Below, piece after piece: positions 1 through 31,400 of a stretch of DNA of 64,000 nt. Position numbers and translations under genes: made by a program. The stretch comes from Rhynochetos jubatus. Lineage: Eukaryota > Chordata > Aves > Eurypygiformes > Rhynochetidae. How positions within the stretch are numbered: position 1 is the stretch's first letter; every line of letters starts with the position of its first letter. Under the pieces are notes generated by a model. That model was not told the origin of the DNA, made no database searches, and saw only the letters and a program-made list of their open reading frames with translations. Location: the NCBI GenBank assembly GCA_027574665.1, contig CM050656.1:6323001-6387000 (forward strand), written 5' to 3'.

Positions 1-362
1 TGACCCAAAATTACTGGAACTCTCTATTAAACTATTATTAGCGATATCTGAAATGTGTGCCCCCTGTAAAAGCCTGACCTCATAAACTGACTTCATACTC
101 CTTCGACGCTGAAGGCATCAGCGGCAGTAAAGCTCATGAAGAAGTTAATAACAACTTCTTCAAACACATCAGGGGCTGGAAGCTTGGAAAAGGGCCGGTG
201 AGGTTGCAGAACCTGCTGCTGCAGCGGAAACTCATGGAGAGTATGGTTTTAATTCTGCATACAGCCTTGATCTTCCCATCTTAAAAAAAGGCCCCATGCA
301 ACTAGAAAAGTCACTGAAAAGGTCAACAAGGATAACTGAGGAAGAGTTTACATTTTTCAAAG

Positions 363-1163
363 CTTCAGCTCAGAAAGACACAGCTGAGAGGACGTACGAT
401 ACCTACACAGGAGATCGTTAACAGTGCCCAGAAAGCACTCGGCCGGCTAAGTATCCAGTACTCGCTGCCATCAGCTGGGAGATGGGGTACGTGGAGTTAG
501 TCTGATCCAACGTGCCAGTCCTGATGATCAGGTGGGTGATTTCTCATTTGCTTGTCTGTCTTTAGTCGTTGCCTTACTGACTGCGGAACAGGGACATTTT
601 TGGAGAACACACAGTAACCGAAGCTTATCGGACAAACTGTGTCCGTATGAACAAAGCAGCTCACGGGCCTCAAAGGCAGCGCAGGTTCCATGCACAACCA
701 CACCGATGACACACCTTTCCTCCCTTTACCCCTTAATATTCACAGGAGAAGGAAAACCCCTGCAGTTCACCTCTTTCAGGCAGCACCTGACCCAAAGCCT
801 TGTCTCTGGGCTGCCCTTAGCGTCACAGTAGCCCTTCTACAGCTGGGCCAGCCTTCCCGTTCCTCCCTTGCCTCCCCTGGTTCTTTCGGAGCACCTTTCT
901 CCACCAGACGCCTCGTGTCCCTTGTTGAAAAGGCAACATTCAGTAGTCGCTTTGACCACGCAGTGTCATTAATCACTCCCCGCGAGCTGACGGAGAAAGA
1001 TACCCTGGCTGGGGTGTTTGTCTCCCGCTCCTCCTTGAAGACCGCCCTGCGAAAGCGCAGAAGAGACAGCGGCCTTCTCCAACCAGGAGCAGCCTCACCC
1101 AAAAAGACACGCAGAGTTGCTCAGGCACTAAAACCAACAGTGCTTAACAAACAGGGGTTTTAA
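363..1163 (+). CDS. Candidate 3' end of an unrecognised + strand gene
   Basis: Three candidate exons chain in phase: 363-486, 746-827 and 908-1163, ending in TAA. Each acceptor has a pyrimidine tract (TTTTTCAAAG, AATATTCACAG, TTTCTCCACCAG); the donors are GTACGT (good) and GTAGCC (weak). The last exon gives 84 residues with a basic tail that includes SSLKTALRKRRRDSG and SPKKTRRV, a look common in chromatin or cell-cycle proteins. I do not recognise the family; the sequence is not the LRP8 C-terminus expected from mammalian gene order. The region is GC-rich, so long open frames also occur by chance, and the opposite strand is open over 776-1102. No AATAAA follows within 150 bases. Earlier exons would lie left of the window. 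Confidence 0.3.
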
Positions 1164-1229
1164 AAAGCCCATCACGTTAATCTTCTCAAAATAGGTATTT
1201 TATGAGGCTTTGTTGTTCACACAGACCTT

Positions 1230-1235
1230 TTTATT
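1230..1235 (-). terminator. Poly(A) signal AATAAA of the candidate minus-strand gene
   Basis: TTTATT on the + strand reads AATAAA on the minus strand, 82 bases downstream of the candidate TAG stop at 1318-1320. The spacing is typical of a short 3' UTR. It supports, but does not prove, a minus-strand transcript ending here. Confidence 0.35.
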
Positions 1236-1317
1236 ATCCATATCTGAATCCTACGTAGCAAAGGGGAACGGCAAAATTTTAAGGGCAATGGCCTCGAGGA
1301 AAAGAGAAATCTACTTA

Positions 1318-4300
1318 CTAGAAGGCATAACGCAGCAGACGCCACCAGTCTGCAACCTCCACATCGCGAAACATGGCTGAGTACACAGCGGGGATTTTAA
1401 AGACCCGTGTAAAATTATTTTAATTTCAAAACTGGCAGAAGAACACGAGCCGCAGCACTGTTCCATACATACAAGCACTGTAAGAACAGGTAATGTTACA
1501 CCGTTCAGCCAGCTGGGCGAGCTCATTCCGAGAAAAAGGCGGTTCTCTCGACCGCAGAGATGCCCCGACAGGCTGGCATTTGCGAGCACTGGTCTTTTGG
1601 CAGGAAAGGCCAAATTTCAAATCCTTTTGCCCTTTTGGGGTTAAGCAGATGTGAGCTCCATCCCAGCGTGGTGAGGCATCAACTCCCCAAACTACATCAC
1701 CCTTCGTTTCCTCCTTGTTTTCACTGGTGGTGATGTAAGAACTCCCAGTTCAGACTGGGACCACGAACACCCACTCAGTCTGACACAGACTGAGACAAAA
1801 CCTCAGGGCTTTGGCACACAACCCCAAACAGCAGTCGAGGTGTTCCTTAGGGACCACTCTTTGCCCAGGACATTACACAAATGACCAGCGATGTCTCTGG
1901 CGTTACCACTTAACGTGGACAGCCACCAAACACGGAACAGTTTGGCTGCCCACGTTACCAGTTTCTCACAGCTCACGTAACCAGTACACACGGCACTAAA
2001 CCAGCTGGAGAAGGTACGATGTCTGCAGCGCGACCGCCAGCCGACGTTCTGACCCCCAGCAATACAAACCTACGCAGCCAGGGGCGCACCCCAAGCCCAA
2101 TCTACACGCAGCCCAAGGCAAGACCATCTGCAGGGCTAGGTAAATGAACTAAGAAGCTGTGATAGAAGCATCTAGTGATGATGTTGCATTTGTTTGTAGT
2201 ACATTACCCTAGAGTTTCAGCTACACTGTTTCAGGAATTAGCTACAGGTATGGTTTCCCATAGCAACAAGGTACATGGGACTAATTGTTCAGGAAAACAC
2301 AGCTGAACAGGAGCTACACCTCCGCACAGCTGCAGCTTGTCCCTTGGTTTGCAGGAAACTGAAACAGGTGCACCTGAAACACAGCTTGGGTTCAGCCCAC
2401 ACGTACTCCTGTTCACAGCAAGGCAGTGTTTGGCCATGCTCACGCTGTTTCAGACCCTGTGGACAAGCCTGGTCAGATCAAGTAAGAATGAACTAAACCC
2501 ACTAAACTTCCCCCCCCCGATTTAAGAAGAAATGAGCACAGGTAAATCTATGTCTCTGCAACAGGCTAAGACAGGAAACAGACCTGCACAAGCACATTTT
2601 ATAACAACAATGCTTATTAAGTGAAACAGTGCACTGCCAAAGAACCACACCTGGGCAGTTGCGGGTGCTTACACCACAGAAGCGCTAGTAGGCTGCCACA
2701 CGTGCATGTGTCAGCAGAGTTATGACCTTATCTTAACACTAACCATTATTTTTCCAAGTACCAAGCGTCACACAGTAGGTATTTGCAGCCTACACACACC
2801 CCGACAGGCATTTAAGATCCGTTAGGAATGGTCAAAACTTCACACAAGCAACCCCGTAAGACGACATTCTCTTAAACTGCTCACGCCAGCCTAAACCAAA
2901 CCCCGCCTGGATGGACTTCTGCAGTAAATTCTCAGTAAGTTACCACGCAAAACAACAGTCCAGCAATTCCTGGATGTTCGCTGTGCCTTCAAAGCAGAAA
3001 GCAAAGGGTTTCATTTGGGATCTGCTGCGGAGGTGGGAAGACTATCTTGAATTAACTGAAGGGGGAAGAAAGCATCAGCTGGTAAGAAAGGCAGGAAAGG
3101 GGACAAAAGCCAAGCGGTTGGCATATGGAAAGCAAAAGATACACATCCAAAATAACATAAGCTGTAATTTCATCAAGGATTTAATGTCCTGTGCACAGGA
3201 AAATACAAAATCACTATCAGTGGGTTCACTCTCCTTGCACAGCGCTCATGCAGACTGGCTCTGGATTGACTGCACTTTAAATTGTGACGGCACAGCGACC
3301 TCCTACAGGGAACACAAACACCTACGTGCACAGCTCTAGTACCTCACCTGACCATACCCCGTCACTTCAGCACTGGTGTTACGTTTGTTGAGGGTTTTCA
3401 CCTTACAGAGCAGATGCGTGTTCGGCAAATCCACCACCCGGAACTGAACAGGGCAGGGATGGGCCAGGGGAGCGAACTGGAGCTTTCTGAAGGGAGCACA
3501 GACAGCAAAGCACCAAACACCCGCTCACAGCTTCACCGAAACACAAAAATGTAAGAGTAAACGCATTTATTTGGTGCACAGTTACCTCTCTGTCCTGAGG
3601 GACCTCTGCACTGTTTGTGCTACCTATACAGCAGCCTGTAAAAGACTCAATTTAATCCTAAATACTGGAGCAGAGCCTTCTAATTAGCAGATAGGCAGAA
3701 GCCTTTTAATTTCAGTTAGTCGATTCAAGGCAAAATCCTAACGAAGACAACACGTTTTGTAGTGTCAATAGCTATCAGCACTATGAAGGCTACAAAACAC
3801 CCTGAGCTTTGATTCAGTGTCTCCCCTTCAGAGCGCACTCTCCCTTCGTAACAAGAATAGGGCCAAGGAGGAGTAACCTGCTGCTCTGGCACACTCAGGA
3901 GTCCACAGCCATATATTATTCCGATTAACATTTTCTCCGTTGAGAAAAATCACCACACAGTGCTACCAGAATATTTCTGTCATCAGGTGCAATGAGTATC
4001 AAATAAGATGTCAGATTCTATTCATACTGTACTAGCTACCGTCTTTCCTCGAGAGCCTTAATGTGGCATCCCTCGGTCTGCTGAAGAAAACTCCAGGTTT
4101 CTGGGCAGCAGAGAAGCTGACCCCAGTAAGCCCTCCTTTCCAAATCAAGCAGAAATGTTGCTGGTTGACACTGGTGTTATGCAGTGCCAGTTTTGTCTAC
4201 TTACCCCCATCTCTGCAGCTCCAGGCCTCAAGGATCTCCTCTTCACTACCAAAACTTTAAAGAAGAAAGGAAATTAAAAGTGTCCTAATGATAAAGCATA

Positions 4301-6530
4301 AATAAAGCTTGCTTCCAGAGAGGAGAGGAGCTGCTAAGGAAAGAGCATGAGATGTGAGTGATGAGAGACCAGTGGCAATTAGAAAGAAGCAAAGGGCAGC
4401 TGGGCTGAACTCTGGGCGGGGCATGACCCCAGCTGACACTTATTCAGAAGATTTGCTAATCCTCTAACCTGGAATTTTAACCTCCAAGTTAAAAGCACAG
4501 AGGTGCTGCTGACAGAAGAAACGCAACTAGAAGAAAAAAATACACCAGGTAACTTTTTATACGTGAATTCCTGTCAGCCTCTGGCACCTGATCATTAGGG
4601 GCAGGACTGAGTATAAAGCAAAAATATTTGGCAGTTTGAAAACGGTGCTCACATATAATTATTGTGCTGGCATTCTCTGTATTCAACGAGTCGATGCAAA
4701 GAACTGCACGGTAATTTCTGATAAGAAGACAGGCAGCTCCTCAAGCCACTACTTTTCGCTACTATGACAACACAGGAAGAACAAAGATGATTGCTTTATT
4801 TTCCACCGCTACCCTAGAATTAAGCCTTTCCCCAGTGACACTCACTTGGCTAACTCCTCTGATTTGATGAGCACACTGAAGTCTTTTTCAGTCCCTCTTT
4901 CATCACCTCAAAGACTGCTGGAGTAAAGGTGGTCAGACAAACGGTCACTGATGAGCTGACTGTAAAGAAAATGCTATTTCCTTTGTAGAAGAGTCACGCT
5001 ATAAATTTCACATCAGACCTCGGTATTTTTAAGCATTCTCTTTTGATTTTCTTTCTTACTCCATGCAAAAAATGTTGTCTTCATCAAATACCAGTTGTTT
5101 CGTATTTAGCCTTCTTTACTCCACACTCATTCTTTTTCTAATTCATGTCATGAAATCTCCACCCTGAACCACAAGTCTTCAGCTCACTAACCTTACGGTT
5201 TTTGAGGAACTCGGCAAAAAATGTACATGGTTCTTTAATATACACAAAGCCATTATCCCTCTGTAGCCCTTAAAGCCACGTAAAACTACGAATGAAGAGG
5301 TTGCAACGCAAAGCCAAGCATTTCCGGACTCTGATGTAGAAAATAACGTTCAAACATACGATCTGTTGAGCTCTACAAGGACGACGTGCTGTCAGCACCT
5401 GCAGGTCTCTTGTGCTGTAATCTGCCCACTCTCATGACCAAACCATGCTCTCCAGCCACCCGTCTGTACGGCGGTTCAGCAATATCAGCTCCCTGTGCTG
5501 TTCCCGACAGGTTCAGAGAGAGGATGCCTACAACAGCATCCGGGAGCACCACGCTGCATGAATGAAAAAGGATGTTAGAGTGGGACCCAACGTAGAAAAG
5601 AAACAAACATTCAAGTCAATAGTTCTAAGAACAAGATGTTTTTCAGGCTAAGACCTTGAAACACCTAGTTAGGTATTACTTTTGCATTCAGATGATACAC
5701 AAGGGTGTCTTCTAGCTTTTCTGCCACAAGACTTAGAAATTTTGTATGCCAGAGACAAAGGAAAAAAATCAGTGTATCAGTGTATGATCACCTGCAGCAT
5801 TCTCGAGTGTAACAACCACCTTGCATAAAGAGTTCATTTTCAAGCACTGCATTAAGTCTCAGGAAAATGTGTTTGCTATGCATTAACAATGCTAAAAAAG
5901 AATGTGTTAGCGGTAGCTGCGGAGAAGACGTTGGGAAGATTCATAACTTTATCTGAAATGGAAGTGGCGGTGATAAAGGCAAAATAGGTTTAAATGCATC
6001 TTATCAGTTTAAAGAATTTTTCTTAATGGTTAAACATTGTGAAATGCCCCAGAGTATTAAAATCAAGCATTTCTATTAAAAATTCAAACCCCGTACAGTT
6101 AAGGCCTGATGAAATACAGGCTTTTAATGATATTTCAAATAACTGCCTCTCCCTCTCATGAAGCCCTTCAGTGATGCTACAGCAGAACTGCTACCCCATT
6201 TCTTACAGCAGACAGCCTGGATCGGAGGTGAGCGGCGTGCTACGGGGGGGTGTAATACATCCACAGGGTTACAAGCAGAGGACTGTGTAATACACACACA
6301 CCCCACTGCTGCTCCACATCAGTTTCTTCCAGGGCTACACACTAGCGAGCCCTCAGGTTGCTGGATGTGCTGCCCACGGCTGATGGCCCACTCCAGCAGA
6401 GGCTCCGAGAGCTTCCTGTTCCAGCAGGTTATTCTGACCACCGTACGGGTTAAGTCACTTTCATATTGAGCCGCCTGCACCTTGCATGGTATGCAATCCC
6501 GTTCCGCAAAAACAGGCCAACTCCCACCTC
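1318..6530 (-). CDS. Candidate unrecognised minus-strand gene, C-terminal part
   Basis: Candidate exons in transcript order: 6530-6481, 6239-6207, 5846-5792, 5553-5399, 5268-5197, 4906-4846, 4254-4205, 3635-3586, 3482-3348, 1521-1500 and 1376-1318 (TAG). All borders are GT-AG and the phases join throughout (for example CC|S, FLKN|R and ELA|N across introns). The longest, 5553-5399, encodes 51 codons starting VVLPDAVVGILSLNL. The exon 3482-3348 contains FRVVDLPNTHLLCKVKTLNK. Both are clearly richer in G+C and CpG than the flanking sequence, as avian coding exons usually are. The C-terminus reads FRDVEVADWWRLLRYAF. Some acceptors (3482, 5268, 4906) were picked among alternatives because they keep the frame, so the chain is partly fitted. 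No domain is recognised. A non-coding transcript with chance open frames is the alternative. Confidence 0.38.
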
Positions 6531-6689
6531 CTCAAAAAATAACTACCAGATACAGAGAAAATTAAATGAAAGAAAGGAAGTCCTAATTTTAACCAGCGCT
6601 GGACATTTCAGTTGGTATTACTTTAACACAGACTTAATTTTCTGTCTTGGTCCGCAGATTACAGGGAGACGTTCTTACCTCTCTGCAGG

Positions 6690-6945
6690 CCTGTGAGGAA
6701 ATCCTGTGGAGATGTACATAAATGGGGGGATGGACAACTCCAGGCCAGTCAGCATCACCTCCACGCCCGGCAAGATCATGAGGCAGATCCTCCTGGAAAC
6801 CATGCAAAGGCACATGGAAAACGAGGAGGTGACTGGTGACAGCCAGCATGGCTTCGCCGCGGGCAAATCATGCCTGAGGAATATGGTGGCCTTGTACGAT
6901 GGGGTCACGGTGTTGGTGGATAAGGGAAGAGGAGGACTGCAGAGA
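6690..6945 (+). mobile_element. CR1 LINE fragment (reverse transcriptase region)
   Basis: The + strand reads PVSITSTPGKIMRQILLE, then a motif like HGFAAGKSCLRNM and a YDGVTVLVDKG stretch. This is the CR1 ORF2 reverse transcriptase segment (usual form PVSLTSVPGKIMEQ / HGFTKGKSCLTN). It is a 5'- and 3'-truncated piece without a CR1 tail, so it is inactive. It lies just upstream, in transcript order, of a candidate minus-strand exon at 6530. Confidence 0.85.
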
Positions 6946-7511
6946 CACTGTCGGCTTCAATCCCAGTATGCAAATACTTTACTGTTCTGGTTTTTCACCA
7001 ACTTGCGTACTTACAGACTGCATTTAAAACTAAAGAGAACTTGGAACTGTAGTCACGTTGCATTAAGAACAGAAACAGGTACCTGTGCTGGGGAAAAAAG
7101 ATTTGGTGTTTATTCCGTTTGTAAATTGCTCAAGACTGGCATCATGTCTTTATCTGTTTCATTATCTGTATAGATGCTAGTGCTACCCTCTGAGTCAGAA
7201 GCAATAAAAAGGCCTCTAAAATTATAACCAAAAAATCCTCTTACAGTATATAAATGCTACATCACAAAGCTTCTCAATGAGCACTAAAGCGTCATCCTAC
7301 AGAATATCGTCATATTAATAAAGGTAATTCAGTTTGATTTTGTACTGTGTCTCTGTGACTCCAGAGAGCATTTTCTGAGTATACAAATATGAAGGTTTGA
7401 GGAGAGGGAGGAGTCACAAGGTTTCGGGTTGGGGTTTCTGACTGGTTTGGTTTGGTTTTAACTAGTACTGGTCTTGCAAACCCCAAACTGGTTCCTTCCT
7501 CCCAGATGCTT

Positions 7512-8250
7512 TCATAGAAACACCGACCCGTTTAGGCTGGAAAAGACCTTTAAGGTCATTTGCGTCCAACCGTTAACCCAGCACTGCCCAGCCCACTGAA
7601 CCATGTCCCTCAGCACCTCGTCCACATGTCTCTTAAATCCCTTCAGGAATGGTGACTCCCCCCACTCCCTGGGCAGCCCGTTTCAATGCCTGACAGCCCT
7701 TTCCAGGAAGAAATTTTCCCTAATATCCAATCCAACCCTCCCCTGGCACAACTTGAGGCCGTTTCCTCTTGTCCCATCGCTTGTCACCTGGGAGAAAAGA
7801 CTGACCCCCCTCTCTGCACCCTCCTCTCAGGGAGTTGTAGGGAGCGATGTGGTCTCCCCTGAGCCTCCTCTTCTCCAAGCTGAACCCCCCCAGCTCCCTC
7901 AGCTGCTCCCGACAGGAATTGTGCTCCAGCCCCTTCCCCAGCTCCGTTCCCTTCTCCAGACACGCTCCAGCCCCTCCGTGTCTTTCCTGCAGTGAGGGGC
8001 CCAAAACTGACCCCAGGATTCGAGGTGCGGCTTCCCCAGTGCCCAGCACAGGGGGACGATCCCTGCCCTGGTTCTGCTGGCCACACTGTCCCTGATGCTG
8101 GCCAGCATGCTGTCGGCCTTCTTGGCCACCTGGGCACACGCTGGCTCATATTCAGCTGCTGTTGACCAACACCCCCAGGTCCTTTCCCGCCGGGCAGAGT
8201 TCCAGCCCCTCATCCCCAAGCCTGTATGTCGCACGGGTTGTGAGATGCAC
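7512..8250 (-). mobile_element. CR1 LINE, 3' part, minus orientation
   Basis: The block starts with the CR1 3' tail in reverse (ATAGAAACACCGACCCGTTT-like, normally ATCATAGAATCATTTAGGTT) and continues through the well-known CR1 stretch on ACCATGTCCCTCAGCACC and CTGGGCAGCCCGTTTCAATG to a GTCCTTTCC..GGCAG section. About 740 bases of the ORF2 end and 3' UTR remain. Open frames at 7603-7995 and on the opposite strand are parts of the element, not genes. Confidence 0.93.
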
Positions 8251-9595
8251 TCATATTGTTTTGGTTAGATCTCTATTCGAAATTGGAGGGTATTAAAGAA
8301 TAACAAGAGGCAGTCGTTTGAGTTGTTAGAAAGGCTTTCAGTTCCTGGAGCAGCTTCACGTTGAGAAGTCAGGGGTTAATGACACAATAAGAATGTCAGT
8401 ACGCAGTCACCGTCTTCTACCAACACCCGTTTTGAGACACCTACTGCAGTTCACTCCCCTAAGGAAAGACACTGAAGTGGGAATCTCTTGCATAGTGAAC
8501 AAACGAGAAACATCTACGTGAACGTCACTGGTGTACGAGGCTAGCGCAGCCAGGGCGTTCAAGCTTCTCTAACTCCAATAAAACAAAGATGTAACCATGT
8601 GCAGGCACCTGAGGTACCAGACTGCAAGACAAAGCGCCCAGCTGGAGCTGGTTGACTTGGGATAGGTGAAGTTAGGGGAAAGACAGACAGACAGAAGAAA
8701 AAAAATGCAAGGACTGAAAGAACTTCCGCTTCAGCAGAAATAATGCAGTCCTAATGGACCATGGAGTACTGCATACCCACCAAGAAGATGACCTTTTCTC
8801 CAGTACTGCAACAACAAAGCCACAGAATGCAAACGGTGATAAACCAACTCCAACTTTACAAAATCAATTTATGTGAGAATGAAAGAACAAAACACATGAC
8901 CTTTTCTTTACTATTAAATAAACCAAATCCATTCTACTGAAGTCTTCTTTCAGAACAGAAGTTATTGCCTGACCTTTCTTATTCCACTGCAGGATGTAAA
9001 GCGATTGGGCAAGCATTTCACCTCTTCTGTTCCTCCTAAATCAGAGTTTGTGCCACCACAGAGGAGAAAACATGCGCTCCTTTCCTAACCTCAACACTGG
9101 AGCTTCTGTAGGTACCATCGGAAATCTGTAACACCTCCCCCACAGCCGGGTCAGAGACCCACTGGCTAGCAAGCCATAAAGGCTGTTGCTAGAATAGGAG
9201 TGGCTGTTTGGGCTAGGGGCCCAGAGGCCAAAGGCAACAAAGGCTGGGATATCACTGGCCGTCCAGACCAGCCCTGTACCTCAGGAGCCCACAGCACACA
9301 AGCACCAGTTGACAGCCTGTACAGTGAAGATCATTAGAAGTGAGGTATGTCTATGTCAGCACCGAGATACTACCCCTAATCCTGACACTGCTTTGTATGC
9401 TACTCTTAAAGAATCAGAAGCACAAAATAGATTTCCTGAAATTATCCTTTTCTGTGGCATTACCACAAGATGAGGTCTTGATCATTTATTGGATTCTCTA
9501 CACAAATTGTTTTATAAACAGTATGAAATCAAAATATAATGTAAATTAATGATAATTACATAATTAATTTTATGATAGTTGGAATATCACTTTAC
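8251..9595. other. No gene seen between the CR1 element and the next candidate exon
   Basis: A/T-leaning sequence with short open frames only. I see no convincing exon, RNA gene or repeat family. If the minus-strand candidate is real, this is intron. Confidence 0.5.
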
Positions 9596-12500
9596 CTGTG
9601 ATTTTTCTCTTCAGGGGGGCGTGCCCAAGGAATGTTCAGTGATGGATGCTGCGGACTGGGATAACCGCAAAATAGGTCTATTCACTGAAGATTGAGATGT
9701 GTTGTTGTTTCCAGTCTTTTTAATCCCAAGAGCCGTCTGTAGGCAAGGTATTTTATTTGATGTAGAAAAAAACCATGTCCATATGCACTTGCACATCTGG
9801 AAATATATAGAATATCTACATTAATTCATTAAGCTGCCCTCCACCACTCGGTTAAACCATTGCCAACAAGGCACTGCTTATGCACCATCCTCATGGTTTA
9901 ACTGATAGACCTGTAGGCACAGTAATGACTGACTGTAAATCAACAATCATTTGCTGAGAGAGAGTCAAATCACTTTATTAGGAGACCTACACGCAGAGAA
10001 ATAACTCCCTCACTTCTGGATTAGTTTATTACAGTCAGCATCATCATTTGCATCTCGGTTTGGGTTTGCATCCTCTTGTGGGGTTTTTTAATCACTGAAA
10101 AATTGCCAGTGACATGAAAAAGAACCAATCTGATGACTCCTAGACACAGGAGAGCAGCTATGCACAACAAAGTAGACGGGGAAAACATGACCAAGAGCTC
10201 TGTGAGATGAGGGAAAGTGGACAGCAGGACAGAACTGCATCTCCTAGCTATAAAAGTGCTCAAAACCCAGACTCTGAAATGATATGCCTCCATGCAGCGT
10301 GGAAGGGACAGTCTTTTGCCACAAAAAAACCCATAGAGAAGGTGGAGGGAATAAATACTGGTATACTTAGAGATGAAGGATAAAGAGCATTAGTGAGCAA
10401 AGATGCACAAGGGGGCCTATGACACGGCTAATTCCAGGGCCCGCCTACCTACTGCTTCTAATAGCTACGAGCCCCTGAACAGGTCACAGGGTACTGTGAG
10501 AGGGTATGTTTACTGATCAAGCAGTCTTTTTCTGAATAAAGAAGAAAAAGGTTGCCATGGCAACTCTGAATGAATTCAGCACATCTCCTGCACATAAAGT
10601 CTATCTACAAGGGCTGTCTTGAAAGTTGAGGGTTTGCCTGCTTCCTGACAGGTATCCCTGGAAATCATACAAAGGTTTTACAAATAAGGATCGCACAGGA
10701 AACGGATGGTACTTTTGCATTCACCAGACCAAAGACTGCTCGAAAGTACAATTACCTATGTAAAAGGAAAGCGGTGTAATTTTCTTGACATACGTTTTCA
10801 AATGGCTGCAGCATTGGAAAAGCTGATGCATGTAGGGGACAAGTAAGGCCTGGCAGTTTTCTGTGAGAAGACAGCACATGCCAGAGGTCTCTACCTTTTT
10901 TGCTAACGGAGCCTTACCTTTGGATCTCCTGATCTCACAGACTAGTTGCATTCCTTATAGAATAAGGGAAAAGCAAAAAAAAACCCCCAAAAAATCAGCA
11001 TTAAAGATGTTGAAACAGCATGAGTTGTTTAGAGAGGAGAGCCATGAGAAGAAATGAAATGCAGAAACAATTTAAAAGTATGCAGAAACCCAGGTTAAAA
11101 TGTTAGAAAGAAATAAAATTCAATTCAGCTTCCTGTCAAAGCGTAACAGAGAATACGAGGTTCACTCAGAGCAGCATAAACATCTCTCTAAAGGTCAAAT
11201 GTAAAAGTTTCTGTTATATATGCACTGCCCCAGGCCTCTCACCTCCGTAAAGTTTCTGAAATTCTGGTGTGTCAAACAGGCTCTGTCAAGCTTCAAAACT
11301 GATCAAAACATGGATTTGGTCATGCACTTCATATAGAAGAAAACATACAAAATCAGGACAAAGCAAGGCCACGTGGAAGCCAGCAGACGTTGCTTTCCAA
11401 GTCTGAATATCACCCTGAGCAGCTCGACACAACTAAGACATCCTTTCGCCAGAACCTGGACACTCCAATGAAAGATGGAAAGTGTTCAACACCCCTTTGA
11501 TTACTTCCACAGACATGCAGCCCTTTTGTAGGCATAACCCTCCCCTACAGGAGGTCATGGGCTAAAGGTTAACTAAATATCTTTGCTCCCTGCCGCTTGG
11601 GGAACCGTCAAATGGTTTGGCAGGTTGGTTTAAACAAAATCAGCCTCCACAGCAATGCAGAATAGAATACAGCACTTGGCTAACTTCTGAATGAAGAGCT
11701 TCAGGCACGCAGTGACGTAAGACGCCTCGTTCTTACACAACACCAACATTTTGGGGAACTACTTCAAGGACCATTCACAAAGGCTAATGTCAGTCAAGAT
11801 GTGCCAGATTCTGCATGTCAGAAGAAACCACTGGAGACAAGCTTCCCCGTGGCAGCCTCCTAAATACGTCTGTAAAATTCTGAAGTGGGAATTAACACAT
11901 ATCTCTCTTTAAATAAGAGTAAATAATATTTTGTGTAAGTTGAAGCCACGGTTCTACCATGAAAAAAACCTCGAATTTAAATAAGTAATTTTTATTTGTA
12001 ATTATTGATGGAAAGAAACTATAACGAGGTGGATTCATCTGTACTGCACCCCTGTTACTCTTCAAGGCTGGCGGTTCTAATACACCAGACTACACACCAA
12101 CTTCCAAACCGGTTAAAATCCCACAGATTCATATGGGGGCTGACTTTTCAAATGAGAAAGTACATTATAAACTTGCGTTTGCCACAAAAACAACCTATAG
12201 AAAAAGCAGAGAATCAAAATCAATCAAAATCAAGAAGCTTCATTAAAATACACAAAAAGATCCATGAGAGCACACTGGTCTGGTCTGAGGACAGGGGGAT
12301 GAACATGGAGACTATGACAGTCCCTTCCTGTTCTGTTTTCTAGTCATTTCCATTAATCCTTCCCCCTTTCAGACACTCATTTGCCCATCTCAGTCTACAC
12401 CAGGCATAGGCGTCTTTTCTTCTAACACAGATGTCAATACACCGCATTTTTGTTTACTTAGTCACCTCCAGCAAGTATTGTCTTGTGAGCAAAGAACGTC

Positions 12501-15087
12501 TCTCAGCCAGGAGCCGGCAACAGCAGCCTGGCACAGCAGGGAAAACCGTACCTCAGGGTACTTAGTAAGTAATAAGGTCACGGCACCAAAACAGATGATG
12601 TTACTTCTTACAGAGCCATACTTTTAATCAAGTAGATACAACTTATCCATATCACAATTTCAAGATACAAAATGGGATGTCTTTTCTAAACGGCGTATTA
12701 GGATGCACAGCTTAGTATTAACACAGAAACCCACAGTCAGCTCCACTCTAACGGCCACAACAGACTGCCGACTCAGCGATATTTTGATACTAATTATCTT
12801 TCACACAATGCAGAGGCACAGACATTAACATTCTTCAAAACTAGAACATAATTCTCTACCCAGCAACTGAAGAAGTAACACAGGTGTAACAAGGATCTGG
12901 AAAATCCACACCGTGGAGCACATTAAATGCTAGCAAACACACGTTAAAGAAACATGTTATGCATTTGTTAACTTTAAAAGAGTATATTGTCTTAATTTAG
13001 TCAGTGAACGTAGTTGCTTTGATAGGGGAAGCAGTAAGAATTAAAGCCTCTGTAGATACAAGGGAAAAGCAGTTGCATAAACCCTCATGTTTAGAACAGT
13101 TTCACAACTTACAGATATGAAAAAACATCAGGAGAACACCTGACTTATGTGGAAACTGTGGAAAAAAATTCTGTCACCCAATTCTCCAACATCTCTAGTG
13201 AGGAGAAAAAAATAGCAGAAATACAACTATTGCAACGGCAGGAGCAGGTTTTCAGGAAAACAGAAACAATTCATAAATCTTGCAACTTTAAAATGAAATT
13301 AAATTAGGGATCCAAAGGAGGTTGATTTATTAGAGCTTTCTGACAGCTTTCACTTACACGTGAAAACAAACACAAACAAACAATAGAAACATTCAGAGCA
13401 TGTTTATCTGGTTTCTCCCATTTTGCCAAGTCCCACAGATCCGCAGTGAATATCTTGTACATTTTGCTCTTCTCAAGACAACAACAACAACAAAAACCTT
13501 TAGACCAGTGTCAGTATGGAGATTTGGTATGCACACTGTTATATCACAGTCCTTCTATCATAGCTAAATATGCTACAAATGTGTATTTATAGAGACACTT
13601 TCTTCAGAGACAGAAGGATTACTGTTGTATATGCTTTTAAGCAGAATGAAAACAACTACTGTCCACACATTTCTGCCCTTCACAACAGAACCATAAGCCA
13701 AGGCATTCAAACGCAGCACGGCTTTTGCTTATAAATGTGTCACGATAACCCAAACACCACCCTGGTAGCAACACCCTATCCATTGTCAAGCCATCAAACA
13801 TGACATTTACTTTAAGAAGACCAAAGAAACTAATACACAAACAGAGCAAAGAACCATGTTTATCTCACCCATAATATGCATTCATCATAAAATAGGTTAG
13901 AATTAGTATACAGAGCTCAAAGACAGTTGACAGCTCCAGATATTCATCCCAGAAATGCAGGTTCTCAAGGTAACTCGTATTCCAGGCTGCTTTTCCTTCC
14001 AACACAGTAATTTAAACAGTGCATTAAACACCGATATTCCTGAAAAGGCTTATGAAACAATTTAGCCGATTACAGTAGTCATTCTCTTATAAAAACACAC
14101 CTGTTGGGGTTTTTTGTTTGTTTGTTTATACCTGGTATTACCTTCAGATTGGACAACCAAGCCCATGTAATAAGCAGGGTAATAGTTCTGCCAAAGCCCC
14201 TTCGAGCTGGTGTCAATGTGAAGGTTACTTTGCTTAGGCTCATGTTTTAATTCCTCTGCCCTACCTGTAAGAGTTCAGAAAGCAATTGGTTAGCTGTTTC
14301 TCTATCAGTTGACTCTTGTACTGAAGGGCCAACTTTGAGATATTTTACAGAAGGGAAAATCATTAAGAATGCAGAATTCAACTGTCAATATTCAAACTCG
14401 AAGACATGAAAGATAATTAACCCTTTTTTGCATTTATATAGCTACTACCTAGAGTCTGCCTAAACTCGGGAAATCACGGCCAAGAATTCAGTGGTTTTTA
14501 ACCACTTGTTTTAATTACAAGCAGCTCTTTGAGATCCAGAACATGCTTTTCTTGAATGAACACACTCTGGATACTATCTGTGGCCAGCTAAATTGTGAGA
14601 GGACTGGAGACAAACCCACAGATTTTACCAGAAGGGTGCTGTAAGTGACAGAATGCCAGACAGGTAGGTTTGTTGTGATGGGAAAGACATGGGGACCTTT
14701 GATTCAACAAGCCCAGCAGGACAGGCATGACCTTGTCCCAGTCATTTAGGCAGAACTCACCCCAGAAAAACTTTCTCAGCAGGTCTGGCAGGGCTTCCCA
14801 GCGGTAGCTCCCTCTGTTTGCGTCAGAGGGCTTTGCTAGCTGGCACTCTTCGTTTTAAAGAATTAGAACTGCATTAAGTGCTCAGTATCGAAACAACATT
14901 CCTGTAAAATGACAAGCTTATTGAAACAAAGTCCCACACCCCAGATCGAGTGGCACTGAAAGTTCTTCTTACTGGATAGACCGAACAGCACTGAACCACA
15001 CCAACATCCTGTAAGCGCTAGAAGTGGGCAGACGGAACGGAGTAAGGCGGTACAACCACATCAGATCTTTTTTGTGCGGAAAAACTC
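9596..15087 (-). CDS. Candidate unrecognised minus-strand gene, N-terminal part
   Basis: Candidate exons in transcript order: 15087-14973, 14847-14761, 14264-14142, 13809-13761, 13466-13358 (acceptor could be 13471), 13155-13113, 12620-12552, 11282-11243, 10953-10918 and 9677-9596. Strong sites include donors GTAAGAAG (14972), GTGAGTTC (14760), GTAAGTG (13357) and GTAAGTTG (13112), and acceptors such as TTTCATCTTCAG (15087) and TTTTTTTCCACAG (13155). The 123-base exon at 14264 gives 40 codons containing GLWQNYYPAYYMGLVVQSE and joins in phase to YRWEALPDLLRKFFWG before it. Two junctions do not agree in phase (14973 to 14847, 13113 to 12620), so exons are missing or misplaced there. A further candidate coding block, RLSLAIFAVVICAEIAELL, lies at about 15679-15600. 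The family is unrecognised. Confidence 0.33.
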
Positions 15088-15099
15088 CTGAAGATGAAA

Positions 15100-16290
15100 T
15101 GGAATAAAAAGACATTAAGTGTTTGATCCTTAAAAGCTGTGGAAGACTGCAACTCCAATTTACTTATTACAGAAAAAAAGGACTCCCAACATTTCCTGCG
15201 AAGCACTGCGCCTCTTCTTGCGCATACACTTAGGACAAATATGCAGAACAGGCTAAGTACGAACTTCTTGGAATTCACAGAAGTTGACAATTACTGAATT
15301 GCCTCTCACTGCAATAATTTGTGTTAAGAGAAATCAACCACCAATCCCAACACGTTTTGCTTTTGAAACACGCTAGTGAAAGCTTAGGGCTCCCACATAG
15401 TCCGAAGAGGAAGCTAGATCACAAAACACACAGAGCTTCTGAAAAACAAACTACAGCCAAGTCTGACCTATTGATGGGTCAGTTTACGTATGAATTATGT
15501 CCAGATGTGGACACCTACGGCTTTCCTCCACGCAGAATTAACTGAGATCAAACGGTCTATTTGATTGTTTACACAGTACCATACCAAAGACTGTTATTTC
15601 CACGGACGGATTAGATCTGGAAGCAGTTCAGCTATTTCCGCGCAGATCACAACAGCAAATATTGCCAGACTTAACCTTCCTGCAACTCCGAAGTAAGCAC
15701 AGAGCGCTTCATTAGCCCTGCACTAACTGCCTACACCTGGGACGGGACACAGCCCCACCTAAACGACACAAGTTCATCAGTGTAAAATCCATTTTCAGTA
15801 CTACCACAGTACAAAACGTCCTCCCCCATTCAGTGTCCTCAATAAAAAGTGTCCTTTCCAGTGACCAGCACAAGAGACACCCTATTTCTCAATTTTTCTT
15901 TCAGAAGGGAGCATTTTACAACAGGACACATCTCCAGCTATGTCCCTTCTCTGAGCAGTTCCCCAAAGATGCACATTACCACCAGTCCCTTTACTCTCAA
16001 GCTTCAGGCCACCAGTGATGAGGGCAACCCAACAAACCAGTACACCGGGAAGGAGGCGCAGGGGTGCGCTGGCTGCAGGGGGGACAAACGCAGCCCAGAA
16101 CAGCCCGGCTGGGTTACACCTTCACCCCAGGGAGGCACAGCACTGCCTCAAACCCCAGCGCAGGAACGCTACGCGCTAACGGCTGGACGCCTGGTGAAAG
16201 GCCAGCTGCACCTCATCTCCCTTCTATCACTACGATGTCTAATTATTACAAGAAAGCCTTTATTAGTAACGAGTGACTAGTTTTCGTATT
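15100..16290. other. Spacer between candidate exons and the MAGOH CpG island
   Basis: Apart from the possible short coding block near 15600-15679 on the minus strand, nothing is seen. Plus-strand open frames at 15833-16280 lack splice or family support. Confidence 0.45.
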
Positions 16291-17060
16291 ACGCCTGGGG
16301 CCAAACTCGCGGCGCGTCCTTCACCGCCTGGTCCCGACAGACAAGTCAACTCCCACGCGGACTTCGGACCGCTCTCTGCTTCAGCGATGGCCCCCAAGCT
16401 GCGCTGTGGGGAAAGGGGAGGTGGGATCCAGCACCAGGCTGAGGTTTTCTGCCCAACACTGCAAACGTGACCACGGGAGAACAGCTTGGCGTCAGGCGCC
16501 CCACGGGGAGCCGCTGCCCGAGGCCCAACCTCTGCCCAGGGGAAGGCGGCCCAAGGGGCTGGGGGCGTGAGGCGGCGCTCCTCACCTCTAGGCCTTCGCG
16601 TCGCTCGGCGATGTCCGGGCCGCCGCGGTGGGTTTGGCTGAGGCGCCGCCCCCGTCCCGCCGCCGGCAGAGGGAGCGTGAGCCGGGGCTGTAGTCACCGG
16701 CGCCCGCCAGGGGGCGGCCGCAGCGGGGAGCACGCTCCGCCCCGCCCGCTCGCCGTGACCCGGTTCCGGCGCGCCGCCGCGGTGCATGCCGGGACGGCGG
16801 CGGGACCATGGCGAGCGACTTCTACCTCCGCTACTACGTGGGGCACAAGGGCAAGTTCGGCCACGAGTTCCTCGAGTTCGAGTTCCGGCCCGACGGTGAG
16901 AGACGGGGAGGGAGCGGGAGGGAGCGCGGCGGGGCCCGCTCGCGCGAGGATGTGGGGCCGGGCCGGGGGCCGCCGCGGAGCGGTGCCGTGCCCGCCTAGC
17001 GCCGGCCTGGCCCGGGTTTGACGTCCGCCCTGTCCCTCCAGGGAAGCTGCGCTACGCCAA
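16290..17060. promoter_or_regulatory. CpG island, likely bidirectional MAGOH promoter
   Basis: About 770 bases are GC-rich and dense in CpG, in sharp contrast to the AT-rich flanks. The island covers the MAGOH start codon, its first exon and, on the other strand, a strong splice donor (TAGAG|GTGAGG at 16586/16585). No TATA box is evident, as expected for a housekeeping gene. Long open frames across it (16263-16787, 16467-17021) are by-products of high GC. Confidence 0.8.
16586..16790 (-). ncRNA. Possible first (untranslated) exon of a transcript divergent from MAGOH
   Basis: On the minus strand the CpG island holds a consensus donor, exon base 16586 followed by GTGAGG. The transcription start would be near 16790, within 20 bases of the MAGOH start codon on the other strand. 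No good start codon leads into this donor, so the exon is read as untranslated. From memory, human MAGOH also has a divergent non-coding transcript. This exon could head that kind of RNA, or the candidate minus-strand gene described above. Confidence 0.35.
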
Positions 17061-28413: not shown

Positions 28414-31400
28414 CTAACTACTGATTTTCTTGCCCTTTAAAACATTAAAGATATCTTCTAATGACTTGTATATACACTGAAGGAATTCTTTACCGTTCCT
28501 AGTTGGGTAAGAGGAAACATTACAACCTATCCAATCTTCGTGTACCTGATATCCTACTCCAAAGCCGTCAGACACCACTGGGCCAAACCCTCCTAATTGC
28601 ACAGCCGGGCTAACCAATGTACTCGTAGAAATGATGTTGTGGTTAAGTCGAGCATAGGCTTGGTCTTGATAGAAATCGGGCAGTGCAACACCTCTGGATA
28701 AGGCTAAATAGCGCAGGCCAAAGAGATGTCGGTCAAATCCCTGCCCTGTTAAAATAAAACAACAAGTATTAGAAAAATTACTAACTTGGGTGGGAAGAAA
28801 ACATTTATTTTCACATCACATCATTGTCTTTCAGCCACCAAAGAGGAAGTCTAGAGAACTGCAGTTTATGTTTGTATTAGCAGGAATTACTCTTCAGAAC
28901 CTAGACATTTTGTACTTCTAATGCACGCATCCTAGGGAATGAGGGCTTTCTGGTTTACTGCTAGCCTCAAGCAGGAATCACGACAGCACACAAAACTGCA
29001 GTGTTAACAAAGCATTTTAATAATACATTCCATTCTTTGATTAACTATCTATCTGAAGTTGTTTAAAACCGAGAAAGGCATGCCTAAAATTTATGAATCT
29101 AAAGACAAAGAGGATCTTGCAACAACAAAAGGCGGCAAATTGTAGGCTCTACGGAGTAACGTTCAATAATCAATTTTCCTGAAACAATACAAGTTATGCT
29201 TCTGGGAAGGACAATTCAAAAGAAAGCATTTAGAAAAATACCAGGAGTAGCACAGCCAAAGAATCAGTTTGGTTTGGAAGTTGTTAAAGCCTTTATCCCC
29301 TGCAGGGATAAGACAGCTAACTCCTCAGACATAAAGCCAAAGTTCTTGGTTGCCCCGGGGAGGACAACACGCACTAAGTATTTATCAAATCTTCAAACAG
29401 CCCAGCTGTTACAAGGACAAAGACCAAAGTATAAGACATTCTCAACACCTCAGCAGTGAAGTGGGAAGCACAGAGGCATTGTCCTCCATCAAGAAACCAG
29501 CCCCAGAGAATGCATTTTAACCGCAGCCTTCTGCTACTGTTTTTGTCAAGTTTACACTTACATCAGACCTCCGTTAAAATTAAACTATTTAGTTGTGAAG
29601 TAAATGTTTACAGCAACCTTAATGGCATTTTAGTGCAAAAGCAAGAGTGTTTGATACTTACCCATAGCAGCTTCTTTCGTCAAACGGCCATGGTATTTTG
29701 AGCACTCCTCTATCAGCTTCTGAAGCTCTTCTGTGCTACGTTTGGACAGCTCATTGACAAAAGCTTCCGAACATTTCTTCGTATGGATGGAGGCAGGACG
29801 AATAGTTTCTGTACGACCATGTTTGAAGGCTGCAGTGCTGCAAGACTCGTAGGTAGCCACAGTCTGGTTGTGCTGTCGAAGGAAGGCCATCTGGAAGGCA
29901 AGCTGAGCCACAGCATCTGGGCTTACTTTCTTCTGCTTCAGAAGGTCCTTGCCGCCTTCATGGAACTGAATCATATTAAGAGACAGTGTTCCCACAGTGG
30001 CATCAAATTTTTGTTTGGCTTTGGTAATTCCTGCTTTTAAGGCATCATTCAGCTTAAAGTCAAGTTTCTGCACTGCTCCAGAACAGTCTACTGCAGCAGG
30101 CTGGGACTGGGGGCTGATGGCTGGTGACTTGGTGCTATCTTTAAAAATTTCATTCTGGAACCTGAGCACAGCCACACCATCTCCCCAGGAATGTTCAAAA
30201 TTAATTCCAGCAGTGCCATCCTTGGTTATAATAAGGTTAAAGGACTTGTCGTACCAGCGGTTAGCACCATCTCCATGCAACATTGTGTGGGACAAGTGCA
30301 CAAAGTCTTTAATGGGAAAGTCATCTAAACTTAAACAAAACAAAGCAGAGTCTACTTTTTGAAGAGCTGCTTCATTGCCGTTATCCAGTAGATTCTTTCT
30401 CAGCAATGCCCATGTGTCTCGGTTTTCACTGGAGAGGTAGCCAAGGGGGAAGGCTGGGGCTGGACTGTTGTCACTAAGGATGTATTTCAAGTGTGCTTGT
30501 ATTTCTGACGGTTTCAGCATATTTCCATCTCTATCAATAACATCAAATACATAAAAATTCCCATTCCGCAGTACTAGTAAATGCTTTGCCTTTTCATCTG
30601 TATAAAGCTCATCCCTGTTGAGCTTAGGCAGCCGCGTAGAATTGAAAAGCCTGAAGTACTGAGACATATCTAGGGGGTATGCATTGACCATGTAGGCACC
30701 AAACCAAGAAAGTGAAGAAGGCACAAATCGGATGATTTTTTTAAAGATCTCAGTGTCACTTTTTTCTGGATTGAGATGGAAAACCTCTGGTTCAAGATAA
30801 CCAGCCCTGAAGGTCTTCATAAAACGTATAGCAGAAACAGTCATGTTCGTAGCTCGTATGAGCTGGTCGTTATACTCAGATTTCGGATCAGGATGAAAAG
30901 ACATAAAGGCATTAAAATTCAGAACAACAGGTTCACGTGCTTTTAGGTACATGTCAAACCAGGGACCTGCAAGTGGAGAGTTGAGAAATAGGTCAGAACA
31001 TCAAAGCACCTTACTGGGTCAGACCAGAGGTTCATGTAGTCAATATCCTGTCTCCAACAGTGATCATGAATAAACACCTACTGAAATGCATACAAACAAG
31101 ACAAGCATGCAGTAATTCCCCCAAGGATTCTCCAAACCTCCAGTTACAAAGAACAGTACTGCTGGCTAATTGTAAAAATACTGTATTTGGAGTAATCCAT
31201 ACCAAGAGTGTCAATGTCATTAGCAATGAGGGCCAATTTCCATGTTTTCTGTGTGGCTCAGTGATAAACCGTAACTCCCACGACACACAATGCAGCTCCC
31301 CAGCATTATATTTTGGCACACACCTCACATCTGGAGTGGAACATGCCTTTACCTACTCTTAAGCTACTCATTTCTGCAACTCTGTCACCGAGGGCATGCT

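Follow-up and report, generated by a model that had tools for sequence, protein, structure and literature searches.

A probable unprocessed nardilysin pseudogene, inverted between LRP8 and MAGOH, in the genome of Rhynochetos jubatus

In this study we analysed a window of 64,000 nucleotides from Rhynochetos jubatus (C11:6323001-6387000, C11 being contig CM050656.1 of the 1.33-Gb assembly GCA_027574665.1, in which all genome-wide searches were made). The part of it upstream of MAGOH had been read, from the letters alone, as an additional gene of many exons, located on the minus strand. We consider it about 90% probable, judging from the sequence, that this region is an unprocessed pseudogene of NRDC, inverted between LRP8 and MAGOH, and not a coding gene. 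NRDC is nardilysin, a member of peptidase family M16, in which the zinc-binding motif is HxxEH. Our interpretation is based on the parental order and strand of the exon remnants, the kept introns, the frame-breaking insertions and deletions (indels), the exons that were not found and the absence of HxxEH. The sequence-only reading was right about a gene-derived unit, since eight NRDC exons occur in order, but 10 indels and 18 of 26 exons unfound speak against a working gene. The copy is predicted to yield no nardilysin-like enzyme. An apparent bird-only gene is thus settled as a gene relic.

The parent gene lies on the same contig. An excess of exon-chain score on the minus strand of positions 1-6600, described below, was followed to a match in the bird's own genome: minus-strand peptides of this part match C11:6893797-6893943 (80%) and C11:6890378-6890554 (47%), with their order kept. 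The locus has Pfam matches to Peptidase_M16_M (E values 2.8e-18, 4e-14 and 4e-6) and an M16_C match below the cutoff. We named it NRDC because of this M16 content and because a partial human NRDC sequence matches it exon by exon, with six matches at 92-100% identity. NRDC occupies C11:6.87-6.90 Mb, 0.57 Mb from the window, and is apparently intact over the 26 exons seen. These 26 form our query set; the first exons, the HFLEH exon and sequence beyond C11:6899500 fall outside it. A genome-wide tblastn search at E 1, made with peptides from 16 exons of the query set, returned only NRDC itself, three of the window exons and one match on contig C8. The last (C8:23095467-23095640) is a weak 41% match to NRDC peptides and perhaps belongs to another M16 peptidase gene.

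To describe the remnants we aligned the 26 NRDC exons, in three frames, to the minus-strand sequence between -6000 and 17000, using both strands of five 23-kb stretches as controls. Eight exons score above every control, on the minus strand and in strict parental order, and they are spread over about 11.5 kb (roughly 3.3-14.9 kb) with introns kept. A DNA comparison found the same eight exon matches plus one CR1-to-CR1 match (window 7513-7937), all collinear and on the minus strand, and no DNA match on the plus strand of the window at E 0.1. The CR1-to-CR1 match, a match at 12969-12995 and a weak match at 2343-2366 are left out of the exon count.

All remnants described here are on the minus strand, and peptide scores are given against the control maximum. 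The exon EYQLARPSDANR...KFFWG is found at 14759-14854 (peptide 70 vs 42, spanning 14759-14848; DNA E 3e-12) with indels of -1 and -8, and the exon NADTLKHEP...VVQSK at 14143-14265 (112 vs 37; DNA E 2e-17; genome tblastn E 3.2e-4) with indels of +1 and -1. At 13154-13210 lies the exon ETLDTLEKWVTEIF (58 vs 34; DNA E 5e-4), which has an indel of +1 and a 9-base gap that deletes the parental acceptor, another AG following a few bases on. The exon SGLP...FDTPEFHKLYR, at 11238-11329, has indels of +9 and +1 and a peptide match spanning 11247-11276 (51 vs 39; DNA 84% identity over 51 bp). The exon VVPVRKVHSLSITWALPPQEQYYR and its flank are represented at 9588-9681 (52 vs 40, spanning 9595-9642; DNA E 0.001), with an indel of -1 in the exon. 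Closer to the start of the window, the exon VLFDTFVNIL...GFNHKLP at 5399-5556 (124 vs 38, spanning 5403-5555; genome tblastn E 7.7e-5; DNA E 2e-11) has an open frame and a donor that has lost 3 bases. It is followed by LLFQLIIDYL...PETLAK at 4840-4959 (61 vs 42, spanning 4880-4930; DNA E 2e-17), with indels of -8 (at the first base), -2 and -4. The eighth is the exon KLQFAPL...VYYQ at 3348-3486, again with an open frame (206 vs 47, spanning 3348-3485; genome tblastn E 3.5e-18).

A possible trace of the exon MHMEEPCFDFLRTK lies at 2343-2385 (-), where 33 of 42 aligned bases agree around a 12-base gap; it is weak, its peptide score of 36 is below the control maximum of 37, and it is not counted. 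Neither is one further exon that ties with the controls (44). This leaves 18 of the 26 NRDC exons not found in place, that is, with no counted match above the controls between -6000 and 17000 on the minus strand. They include the exon just past the zinc-binding motif, and some that are near-identical in human NRDC. The motif itself reads HFLEH in NRDC. No HxxEH was found in the minus frames of the window below 17 kb, and a comparison with the NRDC stretch that holds the HFLEH exon found nothing NRDC-like at window positions above 11 kb (E 0.05).

In pairwise alignments with NRDC, six of the eight window exons contain together 10 frame-breaking indels. Mismatches at the first, second and third codon positions, with the conversion-like tract described below left out, number 61/240, 45/239 and 109/240 (0.25/0.19/0.45), and those in short aligned intron flanks 51/208; these counts cover recognisable exons only. 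The pattern would fit a drifting copy compared with a conserved parent that has accumulated silent change too. A chain of exons can look convincing by eye or to a program because some of the indels cancel (+1/-1; -1/-8) and the translations stay readable. It may well be that annotation pipelines model a false nardilysin-like gene here.

Domain searches alone do not reveal the relic, which was found only by comparison within the same genome. Pfam recovered MAGOH and CZIB as a check of the method, and found nothing at E 1 in 1-17000 (three minus frames) or in 1-9000 (three plus frames), and nothing at E 0.1 in six frames of the 10 kb before the window. In the PDB, the three minus frames of 1-7400 gave nothing beyond two weak BRE1A matches (best E 0.029), and Rfam gave nothing on the window at gathering scores. 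The marks of a functional M16 peptidase are missing: there is no HxxEH in the minus frames below 17 kb, no continuous open frame across the M16 domains and no Pfam M16 match. Nor does the copy look like a processed pseudogene, because the exons are not joined but spread over about 11.5 kb.

Several observations weigh against a decayed copy of NRDC. The indel counts depend on the pairwise alignments used. Two of the eight exons (5399-5556 and 3348-3486) are open in frame, the indels in 14759-14854 and 14143-14265 compensate and leave translations without stops, and several remnant exons have intact splice sites. The excess of third-position mismatches could also come from a period of selection that preceded decay. 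One more NRDC exon, of 16 residues, scores slightly above the controls (34 vs 31), but its position, 12969-12995, breaks the order; we take this match as chance and do not count it. Applied to the remnants, Pfam gives no M16 match, its sole match being a weak one to RRP40_N at 5379-5609 (E 0.006), below the family cutoff. Two segments, 792-1046 and 1473-1723 (-), have no NRDC match, and at E 1 nothing related to them is found in the rest of the genome. Finally, the evidence base is one genome.

An odd part of the copy is a tract at 3384-3543 (-), whose 160 bp match NRDC (C11 about 6893742-6893901) with 98.75% identity. It covers most of exon 3348-3486 and about 57 bp of intron, whereas the other seven copied exons have 64-78% identity to NRDC. 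This difference suggests gene conversion between the window copy and NRDC, which would be the simplest reading; an assembly error is the alternative. Between NRDC and its human counterpart, 22 of 34 residues agree inside the tract and 12 of 12 in the adjoining part of this exon (34/46 in total, counted by eye). The lower agreement inside the tract hints at conversion into NRDC. We consider it improbable that the conversion ran from the decaying copy to the working gene, with a pseudogene rewriting part of a conserved protease exon. A near-identical tract in a relic and in its parent gene, at a distance of 0.57 Mb, offers a natural test of gene conversion over long range and of the direction it takes.

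If the region is an NRDC pseudogene, the copy would have originated as a segmental duplication of NRDC, 0.57 Mb off on the same chromosome. It would then have lost large pieces, acquired a CR1 element and decayed while its protein was under no selection, and one exon region would later have been overwritten by gene conversion, most simply from NRDC to the pseudogene. With NRDC the window copy shares the order and strand of eight exons, the intron positions and several splice sites; it differs from NRDC in its frame-breaking indels, in the 18 of 26 exons for which no match in place was found and in having no HxxEH. Like other unprocessed pseudogenes it has kept introns, a parent elsewhere in the genome and a decayed frame. 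Unlike them, it has a 160-bp tract that is near-identical to the parent over a distance of 0.57 Mb.

A transcript may still run through the relic. A divergent long non-coding RNA (lncRNA) from the MAGOH promoter, a positional counterpart of human MAGOH-DT that may use old NRDC splice sites, is possible, although we hold it to be rather doubtful; it would not conflict with the pseudogene. The CpG island would be shared, and the base skew of 1-16 kb is of the kind that minus-strand transcription leaves, with a change of sign at about 16.5 kb (90% bootstrap interval 16.3-19.9 kb). An excess of T and G is reported for mammalian introns, and near-zero skew upstream of CpG-island genes for two mammal groups (PMC2927911). 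Against this, the sense strand of NRDC is equally skewed (0.056/0.088 vs 0.075/0.099), as are 5 of 20 random 10-kb stretches. The copy may thus have inherited its skew from the parent, and we do not accept it as proof of transcription in place. The suffix DT stands for divergent transcript. The likeness of human MAGOH-DT to the putative window transcript is one of presumed position only: the review passages that name it call it a lncRNA and give no position. Many divergent pairs of lncRNA and gene are reported in chicken lncRNA studies. The chicken lncRNA papers examined mention neither MAGOH nor LRP8 in their main text, and a literature search on LRP8 and MAGOH in chicken found nothing. Among titles and the starts of abstracts there is no bird nardilysin-like gene, and nothing on this locus by title.

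Could the region instead hold a working, fast-diverged NRDC-like gene whose transcription starts in the MAGOH CpG island and whose exon boundaries have shifted? We think this very unlikely. In its favour, several exons are open with usable splice sites, and the codon-frame asymmetry of exon 3348-3486 (+0.14/+0.13) resembles that of known exons (+0.11/+0.11). A further point is the chain score. Once the CR1 pieces are removed, z for the minus strand of 1-16000 is 5.4/8.8, which exceeds all 40 random 10-kb strands (maxima 4.9/7.5), although the stretch is longer than those strands. By part, again without CR1, 1-6600 reaches 6.0/7.9, above both random maxima, and neither 1-7400 (4.9/6.4) nor 8250-16000 (2.3/4.1) is above both. 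However, a coding gene is contradicted by the 10 frame-breaking indels, by the 18 of 26 unfound exons, including ones near-identical in human NRDC, and by the missing HxxEH motif. The best coding-like exon lies mostly within the conversion tract, and the codon asymmetry pooled over 1-6600 (+0.07/+0.06) is inside the random range.

Pure over-fitting, with no gene-derived unit at all, is hardly credible: the number of in-phase pieces is like that of shuffles and their GC enrichment is largely a selection effect, but the NRDC matches are collinear at both DNA and protein level and on one strand only.

The in-phase chain nevertheless shows how far such signals can be trusted. Our own exon-chain finder uses splice-site weights, open frame and codon usage. 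Open segments bounded by AG...GT are numerous on the minus strand, as had been noted, and many join in phase. Run without codon usage, the finder gives a best in-phase chain of 49 exons for the minus strand of 1230-16790, compared with 44.6 +/- 3.6 in block dinucleotide shuffles, of which 28 of 200 attain this length. As shuffles give similar chain lengths, the twenty in-phase pieces of the sequence-only reading are no evidence: the segments exist, their count does not speak for a gene, and a new coding gene on the chain alone is rejected. The chain score on the minus strand is matched by 0 of 100 shuffles, but the same is true of the plus strand here (0/100), and 2 of 4 control strands likewise beat their shuffles. 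Compared with third-order Markov sequence the z values are 3.3/6.1, the stricter score being attained by 0 of 100. The segments 792-1046 and 1473-1723 (-) are long, open, splice-bounded and high-scoring; masking them together with 3348-3486 and 5399-5553 lowers z from 6.1 to 3.2, still with 0 of 100. The AATAAA at 1235-1230 is present, yet not special, being one of 11 on the minus strand of the interval (4.8 +/- 2.2 in shuffles, attained by 2 of 200).

The richness of the pieces in GC and CpG is largely a selection effect; chosen pieces are GC-richer than their flanks on 39 of 40 random strands. The excess here is indeed above the random means (GC +0.113 vs +0.058; CpG +2.4 vs +0.58), but once the pieces are pooled, with the CR1 ones and the CpG island set aside, it falls inside the random range, and we reject it as evidence for a gene. 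The over-fitting that had been feared thus applies to many segments, which are like shuffles or lie in a repeat, but not to the collinear NRDC exons, which are real.

The repeat in question is a retroposon at 7512-8241 (-) inside the decayed gene, which we take to be a CR1. At least 39 further copies in the genome span most of this element with 85-93% identity, and there is a partial copy at 68%. The strongest chain "exon" outside the MAGOH CpG island, 7788-8129, is within it. A peptide at 6697-6921 (+) looks like CR1 ORF2 and may belong to it.

The region is bordered by MAGOH exon 1 at 16808-16895 (+), in a CpG island. MAGOH (+) is followed by CZIB (+) and by CPT2 (-), whose last coding exon is 29630-31000. 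On the other side, at distances of 7.3 and 6.1 kb before the start of the window, there are plus-strand exons with C-terminal motifs (NPVY, SLEDDGLP and stop) that we take to be those of LRP8. Because LRP8 (+) precedes MAGOH, CZIB and CPT2, the order LRP8-MAGOH-CZIB-CPT2 is the mammalian one, given this naming and the human order, and the earlier statement that the locus does not match mammalian gene order was wrong. CpG observed/expected is raised (about 0.4-0.9) from about -12 kb to +3 kb, over the 3' part of LRP8 and its downstream flank. In the stretch downstream of LRP8 there is also an open reading frame of 170 residues at 651-1163 (+). A genome search with it at E 0.001 returned itself alone, and it has a weak match to PI3K regulatory subunit 6 (E 0.046).

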